Assembly (NCBI RefSeq): GCF_004365875.1
Contig: NZ_SODF01000001.1
Location: 2,232,001-2,296,000 of the forward strand
Length of the DNA: 64,000 nucleotides
Direction: 5' to 3'
From: Kribbella kalugense
GTDB taxonomy: Bacteria > Actinomycetota > Actinomycetes > Propionibacteriales > Kribbellaceae
Shown: in pieces, positions 21,999 to 22,608 of the stretch
Layout of the letters: every line of letters begins with the position of its first letter
Position numbering within the stretch: position 1 is the stretch's first letter
The notes under the pieces: model-generated
Told to the model about the DNA's origin: nothing
Databases searched by the model: none
What the model saw: the letters and a program-made list of their open reading frames with translations, nothing else
Program-made: the position numbers and the translations under genes

Positions 21999-22012
21999 AC
22001 AACCATGGTTGT
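21999..22012. promoter_or_regulatory. MarR operator, copy 1
   Basis: Perfect 14-bp palindrome ACAACCATGGTTGT. It touches the marR -10 (TATAGT, 21994-21999) and the -35 region of the divergent gene. Confidence 0.7.
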
Positions 22013-22026: not shown

Positions 22027-22040
22027 ACAACCATGGTTGT
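22027..22040. promoter_or_regulatory. MarR operator, copy 2 (covers the start codon)
   Basis: A second identical palindrome ACAACCATGGTTGT, 28 bases after the first. The ATG start codon (22033-22035) of the downstream gene is its centre, so repressor would sit on the transcription start. Confidence 0.7.
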
Positions 22041-22608
22041 GCAAAAGGAGTTTCTCGAGAGAGCGCACCGCATCGTGTGGTGCACGGTCGCGACGGTCGG
22101 TCCGGACAACCGGCCGCGGAGCCGGATCCTGCACCCGATCTGGGAGCTCGACGATCAGCTGACCGGATGGATCGTCACCCGGGCGACGCCGGTCAAGGTG
22201 CGGCACCTCAGTTACAGCCCGTATCTGAGCTGCAGCTACTGGGAGCCCGGTCATGAAGTGGCCATCGCCGACTGCGAGGCGGAGTGGGTCACCGATGCCG
22301 CGACGCGGCAACGAGTCTGGGAGCTGTACCGCGACGCTCCAGCCCCACTCGGCTACGACTTCTGGAGTGTGTTCCCCGCTGGACCGGCCCCGGTCGTGGG
22401 GCCTCCCGGCCTGGACCGAGGAGCGCAGGGAGCGAAGCGACCGGAGCGACGAGGGAAGGCCGGGAGTAACAGCCCCACGACCCGCCGCGCCGGAGGCGCG
22501 GCATTCAATACAGAGTCACCCTCACTCCTACGGCTTGCGCCGTACCGGCTTCGGCTTGCTGATGTCGAGACGCTCAGCGGCCGGAAGGAACCTCGGGTCT
22601 GGCCCTGA
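22033..22608 (+). CDS. Pyridoxamine 5'-phosphate oxidase family protein with an in-frame insertion
   Basis: 191 residues; split-barrel flavin-binding fold typical of F420/FMN-dependent oxidoreductase-like proteins. Residues 1-118 are normal family sequence (AHRIVWCTVATVGPDNRPRSRILHPIWE, VKVRHLSYSPYLSCSYW, YDFWSVFPAG), and 165-180 resume with LLRLAPYRLRLADVETL. Between them, about residues 120-162, is a Gly/Arg/Pro/Lys-rich stretch encoded by a palindromic element (22392-22502) that keeps the frame open. The ATG at 22033 lies within an operator, 6 bases after a -10 box; there is no ribosome site. Probably repressed by the divergent MarR. Whether the enlarged protein folds is unknown. Confidence 0.82.
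   Translation: MVVQKEFLERAHRIVWCTVATVGPDNRPRSRILHPIWELDDQLTGWIVTRATPVKVRHLSYSPYLSCSYWEPGHEVAIADCEAEWVTDAATRQRVWELYRDAPAPLGYDFWSVFPAGPAPVVGPPGLDRGAQGAKRPERRGKAGSNSPTTRRAGGAAFNTESPSLLRLAPYRLRLADVETLSGRKEPRVWP
22392..22502. repeat. Palindromic element inserted in a coding gene
   Basis: Outer arms GGTCGTGGGGC (22392-22402) and GCCCCACGACC (22472-22482) pair perfectly. Inner arms TCCCGGCC (22404-22411) and GGCCGGGA (22458-22465) also pair perfectly, with a GAGCG-repeat core between them. A second hairpin GCCGCGCC-gga-GGCGCGGC follows (22484-22502). The length and structure suggest a short non-autonomous palindromic repeat. It is in frame in the host gene. No second copy was noticed in this window. 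Confidence 0.7.

Follow-up and report, generated by a model that had tools for sequence, protein, structure and literature searches.

The palindromic element inside a pyridoxamine-5'-phosphate-oxidase (PNPOx)-like gene of Kribbella kalugense is very probably one copy of a mobile, structured Kribbella repeat family whose copies normally sit at the start codons of genes. This reading is built on the positions and ends of the copies, the empty sites, the reading frame, the Shine-Dalgarno sequence and the covarying stems, all of which were established by sequence comparison. In the window (the whole 64,000-nt stretch of DNA that was analysed), covariance model R1, built from 64 element copies, gave a sole match at 22392-22519 on the minus strand (128 bp, 130.4 bits, E 5.7e-28), which is the element's own sense. 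The palindrome reported in the preliminary description was confirmed as a real observation; its left end stands, and its right end, placed there at 22502, is carried by the model to 22519. The outer stem pairs 22392-22402 with 22472-22482 over 11 perfect bp as described, the inner stem (22403-22412 with 22457-22466) is perfect over 10 bp instead of the reported 8 bp, and the third stem is present as a separate perfect 8-bp hairpin at 22484-22502 (arms 22484-22491/22495-22502), on the 5' side in the element sense. The types of hairpin vary among element copies. Folded as RNA, the window strand of 22385-22510 reached -79.4 kcal/mol (z -5.6 vs dinucleotide shuffles), and the sense strand folded with its flanks was barely better than shuffles (z -1.1, two folds).

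BLAST of the host genome (8.32 Mb, 5 contigs) detected 24 copies at E <= 2e-16, the window copy counted, with 75-100% identity across most of the query; beyond these, a search at E <= 1 gave just seven short chance-level matches. The element had been proposed to be a dispersed, apparently mobile repeat, and this was borne out by the 23 copies found besides the window copy and by the lack of the insert in 16 of 20 orthologues of the interrupted gene. Neither outcome named beforehand as refuting it, an insert shared by all close homologues or the lack of any further copy, occurred. Within Kribbella, 28 of 38 genomes (host counted) carry copies and 10 do not. Carriers have between 1 and 65 copies each; the total of 594 includes related copies and comes from scoring no more than 92 candidates in any one genome. 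A pattern scan of genomes found at least 80 loci, all of them Kribbella among the matches listed; these copies were selected by their 3' end and therefore give no independent support for it. The length is mostly 125-128 bp. At locus L045 of genome G034, tandem and partial copies lie in a row around 1492-1720, resembling a variable-number tandem repeat. Among open-access titles and abstract beginnings, no description of the Kribbella element was found, in agreement with the initial remark that no such case was known from this lineage.

In 20 of the 24 host copies, the terminal NTGACC of the element is itself the start of an ORF no shorter than 159 codons; the window copy (L001), L016, L018 and L019 depart from this arrangement. 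Pfam matches 17 of the 20 downstream products (for L023 from residue 1), which include transport permeases and ATPases, an FAD-binding protein, biotin carboxylase, malate/lactate dehydrogenase, cation efflux proteins, GntR and MarR regulators, and others; the products downstream of L006, L009 and L015 have no Pfam match. The FAD-binding product is presumably NadB-like. In a strict automatic gene-start test, 17/24 host copies passed vs 115/1118 control NTGACC sites outside elements, together with 19/30 copies from relatives and 57/91 pattern-scan copies (one of the 91 unscorable). L021, L022 and L023 fail this test, yet their gene starts are supported by Pfam. On the other side of the element, the 5' TGA is the exact end of an upstream coding ORF (at least 100 codons) in 8 of the 17 host copies with a 5' NTGAC, and these eight copies sit at operon junctions.

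In its own sense the element starts with NTGAC, carries a mini-ORF some 40 codons long and closes with GGAGG-CCCC-NTGACC, the 3' end reading ...GGGAGGCCCC-NTGACC. The mini-ORF runs from the first NTG to the TGA inside the terminal ATGA, so that it overlaps the next start codon by 4 nt. NTGAC was found at both ends in 85 of 147 distinct copies of the combined set, the other 62 not being measurable at both ends; the 147 copies share ancestry and hence are not independent events. Two of the 85 were mis-measured, and of the remaining 83 measurable copies 76 have a spacing that keeps the mini-ORF in frame (101, 104, 119, 122, 131) and 7 have an out-of-frame spacing (117, 118, 120). GGAGG followed after 3-6 nt by [ATG]TGAC is present in 26/30 copies from relatives and in 23/24 host copies, the sole host exception being the window copy. 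Both the Shine-Dalgarno sequence and the start codon lie within the stem. We do not claim a conserved mini-ORF peptide, because the conserved loops are common to related elements elsewhere. In the window copy, the 5' end motif GTGAC, at the site of the mini-ORF start and target (22515-22519, minus strand), and the family Shine-Dalgarno GGAGG (22402-22406, minus strand) are retained; the mini-ORF stops at codon 5 (GTG ACT CTG TAT TGA), and the start codon has decayed to ACG (22395-22397, minus strand), a position at which each of the remaining 23 host copies (of 24) shows ATG, GTG or TTG with AC after it.

For the empty-site comparison, nine host copies were followed into 16 Kribbella genomes, and 90 of 142 matched loci were read. 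The element was absent from 86 of the 90 orthologous gene starts and present at 4 (three at a dehydrogenase gene, one at a deacetylase gene). Forty empty loci were expected, because ten of the 16 genomes had been picked for having no element; the other six genomes have the element at different loci, and of the 50 orthologous loci read in them 46 were empty. At the nadB-like gene, the empty allele reads GGTCGCGGG-ATGACCGGACCC and the filled allele reads GGTCGCGGG-ATGAC-element-GTGACCGGACCC; NTGAC is therefore present once before insertion and twice after it. The 3' NTGAC pairs with the 5' stem arm, and both change together in several copies. This covariation favours the view that one copy of NTGAC may move along with the element, over a duplication of the target. 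Several start sites are occupied in more than one species. At three of them (L012/L046, L014/L088 and L005/L054) the same gene start carries different hairpin types in different Kribbella species, which points to insertion having recurred there or to copies having converted one another. Just upstream of an empty start of an ABC-2 transporter gene (L259, genome G013) lies ATGACAGTACTCGATTTACAGGAAGG, whose beginning resembles the 5' end of the element; it may be a deletion remnant or a chance likeness.

Taken together in the element's own sense, these features would fit the following course. The element would insert at NTGAC and leave NTGAC at both ends; the 5' NTGAC, a former start codon or operon-junction TGA, would then open the mini-ORF of about 40 codons, while the mini-ORF TGA overlaps the start codon of the interrupted gene by 4 nt (ATGA) and the element provides a stem-held GGAGG just upstream of that start codon. 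We infer that ribosomes on the mini-ORF open the stem and then move onto the gene, and insertion at a start codon would therefore be nearly harmless. The mini-ORF would in this way be translationally coupled to the gene that follows it.

The element might instead descend, as a non-autonomous MITE or REP-like form, from a transposon of the IS200/IS605 (Y1) or IS110 type, which we consider unlikely. IS200/IS605 elements insert beside a short fixed motif and carry subterminal hairpins. The Kribbella element also adjoins a short fixed motif, has subterminal hairpins and shows no obvious terminal inverted repeats: none was seen by eye on the alignments, and the ends outside NTGAC are not mutually inverted, unlike those of a MITE of a DDE transposon. 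It shares hairpins and a short fixed motif at the insertion point with REP/RAYT and IS200/IS605-derived repeats, but unlike the situation for these repeats, no Y1 transposase (PF01797) was detected in the 32 Kribbella genomes tested (24 plus 8 more). Outside Kribbella, eight genomes with related elements were tested and five of them do contain a Y1 transposase, yet Y1_Tnp had no match in G402, G323 and G409, all of which carry related elements. IS110 transposases were found in 23/38 Kribbella genomes; however, at E <= 1e-10 none was detected in the host (G000) or in G017, G002 and G005, genomes that hold 24-35 copies. The host BLAST at E <= 1 also yielded no longer element with shared ends. 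Among individual candidates, IS200/IS605 or RAYT mobilisation in Kribbella was rejected on the PF01797 result in those 32 genomes, IS110 was rejected for its absence from several many-copy genomes, the host included, and so was an autonomous host parent sharing the element's ends, with only the seven chance-level matches beyond the 24 copies. Carriage by plasmids or phages was dismissed as well, with no match of the window copy to plasmids or of the L012 copy to phages.

Next we consider the RNA structure and the wider relatives of the mobile family. In a sample of the class, 21/394 genomes gave a match, host counted; in the order, 38/293 genomes did so, comprising 28 Kribbella genomes (host counted) and 10 others. 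The non-Kribbella copies have different stem sequences that still pair, and CTTCCCTCGTCG and CTCCTCAGTCCAG are among the loop motifs that recur in them; related elements with different but complementary stems are present in other actinobacterial families. Covariation was measured on 40 distinct sequences, three from the host and the remainder from other genera, in an alignment that was fitted to the tested structure and is thus biased in its favour. Standard pairs made up 92.4% of pair cells, and both partners had changed in 16 of 19 pairs. The covariation score was 0.564, vs 0.142 in shuffles and <= 0.097 on sliding; further pair types numbered 36 vs 32.0, a count attained by 30/500 shuffles. 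In Kribbella alone the covariation was modest (5/19 pairs changed on both sides, term -0.33 kcal/mol). Among 31 non-Kribbella copies examined, a Shine-Dalgarno sequence plus start was found in 2, both in G402 and each leading into an ORF (230 and 303 codons). No element match at gathering score was found in Rfam (window stretch and 10 loci), and identity with a known RNA family was rejected on this ground. In other genera, two or three related elements lie within a few hundred to a few thousand bases of each other at L293, L306 and L310-L313; near the two at L293 there is a SAM-IV riboswitch (1675-1790, 104.5 bits).

The strong covariation, a start codon and Shine-Dalgarno sequence held within a stem, and start sites filled in more than one species could also be explained by a fixed cis-regulatory leader (an attenuator or translational switch) that is retained for regulation and is not a selfish mobile element. 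This explanation appears improbable, however, in view of the unrelated downstream genes, the 46 of 50 orthologous loci that are empty in six carrying genomes, the range from 0 to 65 copies per genome and the one copy that lies antisense inside a gene. Regulation could have been acquired secondarily at some copies. Returning to the mobile family, we see about even prospects for a broader proposal: an actinobacterial superfamily of undescribed structured mobile elements, with conserved loop motifs and freely changing complementary stems, whose Kribbella branch would have gained a built-in Shine-Dalgarno sequence and start and so become a self-contained translation-initiation cassette that invades start codons without silencing genes. 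On this proposal the mobilising enzyme would lie outside the transposase families tested, and antisense copies could be domesticated as protein segments.

The interrupted gene is a PNPOx-like ORF of 191 aa (22033-22608, plus strand), with Pfam PNPOx_N spanning aa 6-99 and the element lying antisense inside it at residues about 120-163. The ORF has no stop across the element, so the claim of an in-frame insertion was upheld. In the alignment of homologues, 20 orthologues reach the site; the insert is carried by four of them (G000, G014, G016 and G018) and is missing from 16. The latter have a short form, for example FWSVFPDGPAGESPSLLRL, and in some cases the gene appears to be partial or frame-shifted. 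G000 and G014 share one insert frame, and G016 and G018 use another. The G000 frame is open in 1/24 host copies, namely the window copy, in 0/30 copies from relatives and in 4/91 pattern-scan copies; the window copy is open because the family-consensus TGA is CGA there (22417-22419, plus strand), and the G014 insert likewise has CGA. The G016/G018 frame is open in 20/24 host copies with no change needed. Between G000 and G014, pS and pN were 0.36 and 0.06 in the N-terminal part and 0.13 and 0.10 in the insert (14 insert changes); between G016 and G018 the values were 0.43/0.09 and 0.08/0.06, respectively (9 insert changes). With these few changes, the pN/pS of the insert was 0.73 and 0.78 vs 0.10-0.28 elsewhere in the gene. 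The residues thus give no sign of constraint at the protein level, and the insert appears to have diverged less than the gene around it. The window copy shows a reading frame under selection, with residues not visibly so. A local tree was built from 16 orthologues, four of the 20 being omitted as too short or unmatched; in it, G000 groups with G016 (support 87/87), G014 with four non-carriers (94/95) and G018 with one non-carrier (100/99). A single simple origin of the insert was unsupported, the four carriers being scattered on this tree, although all four have an unusual GPAP left junction in common. Its history may have involved recurrent insertion, exchange of genes or repeated loss.

The likeness to Rickettsia palindromic elements (RPEs) that was drawn at first did not survive the copy positions. 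RPEs are reported often within ORFs, as fusions, in the part of the source available (PMC10969869), and in that respect the window copy, a palindromic repeat of similar size sitting in frame within a gene that has insert-free homologues, is alike; the RPE pattern fits the window copy alone among the host copies placed (all but L016, L018 and L019), unlike the family as a whole, which is found at start codons. A repeat spreading chiefly within coding sequence and retained because it adds a tolerated peptide would agree with the in-frame window copy, with the 16/20 orthologues lacking the insert and with the 20/24 host copies open in the one window-strand frame of G016 and G018, but it is highly improbable and largely refuted, since 20/24 host copies are at gene start codons in the opposite orientation with their own mini-ORF, Shine-Dalgarno sequence and start, the window frame is open in just 1/24, and the insert residues are without visible constraint in frames that differ between species. 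The related suggestion of a mobile repeat able to add protein segments holds in part: the insert is in frame and absent from 16/20 orthologues, but coding sequence is an atypical site for the family and the added residues show no visible constraint.

As a member of the start-codon family, the window copy would represent an antisense off-site insertion in the PNPOx-like gene. Its minus-strand target was an imperfect GTGATT, as seen in empty alleles and in G018. After insertion, the start codon and mini-ORF would have decayed while the reading frame of the PNPOx-like gene stayed open.

Among described systems, the closest analogue is the mycobacterial MIRU rather than the RPE. In the accessible portion of a 2025 review, MIRUs are presented as apparently mobile repeats that enter genes at the start codon and couple an internal ORF to the gene, overlapping its start with a spacing of -4 nt (PMC12548453, citing Supply et al. 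1997); in that of another, their length is 40-100 bp (PMC2734929). As far as these partial sources go, the Kribbella family resembles MIRUs in being a short, apparently mobile repeat at start codons or stop/start junctions (20/24 host copies; 8/17 with an upstream ORF ending at the 5' TGA; empty sites), in an internal ORF that overlaps the next start by 4 nt (76/83 measurable Kribbella copies in frame) and in tandem copies (L045). It differs in length, mostly 125-128 bp against the 40-100 bp of the partial source (PMC2734929), in belonging to another genus and order, and in the one copy antisense inside a gene. The Kribbella element also has a long covarying stem, a separate hairpin and a conserved Shine-Dalgarno sequence, in a comparison where MIRUs enter by description only. 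The Kribbella family may be regarded as a second example of MIRU-like start-codon invasion, in a different actinobacterial order, where copies run into the hundreds, empty sites are numerous and covariation is clear. In these harmless soil bacteria it becomes testable whether coupling makes start codons a safe harbour and which enzyme moves the elements, and the window copy illustrates how a stray antisense copy may turn into a protein segment.

Two minor observations concern the PNPOx-like gene itself. In one relative (L075, G009) it is apparently split by a frame shift. In the window, two perfect ACAACCATGGTTGT palindromes lie between the MarR-type and PNPOx-like genes, at 21999-22012 and 22027-22040, the second covering the PNPOx-like start codon; these palindromes are likely MarR operators.
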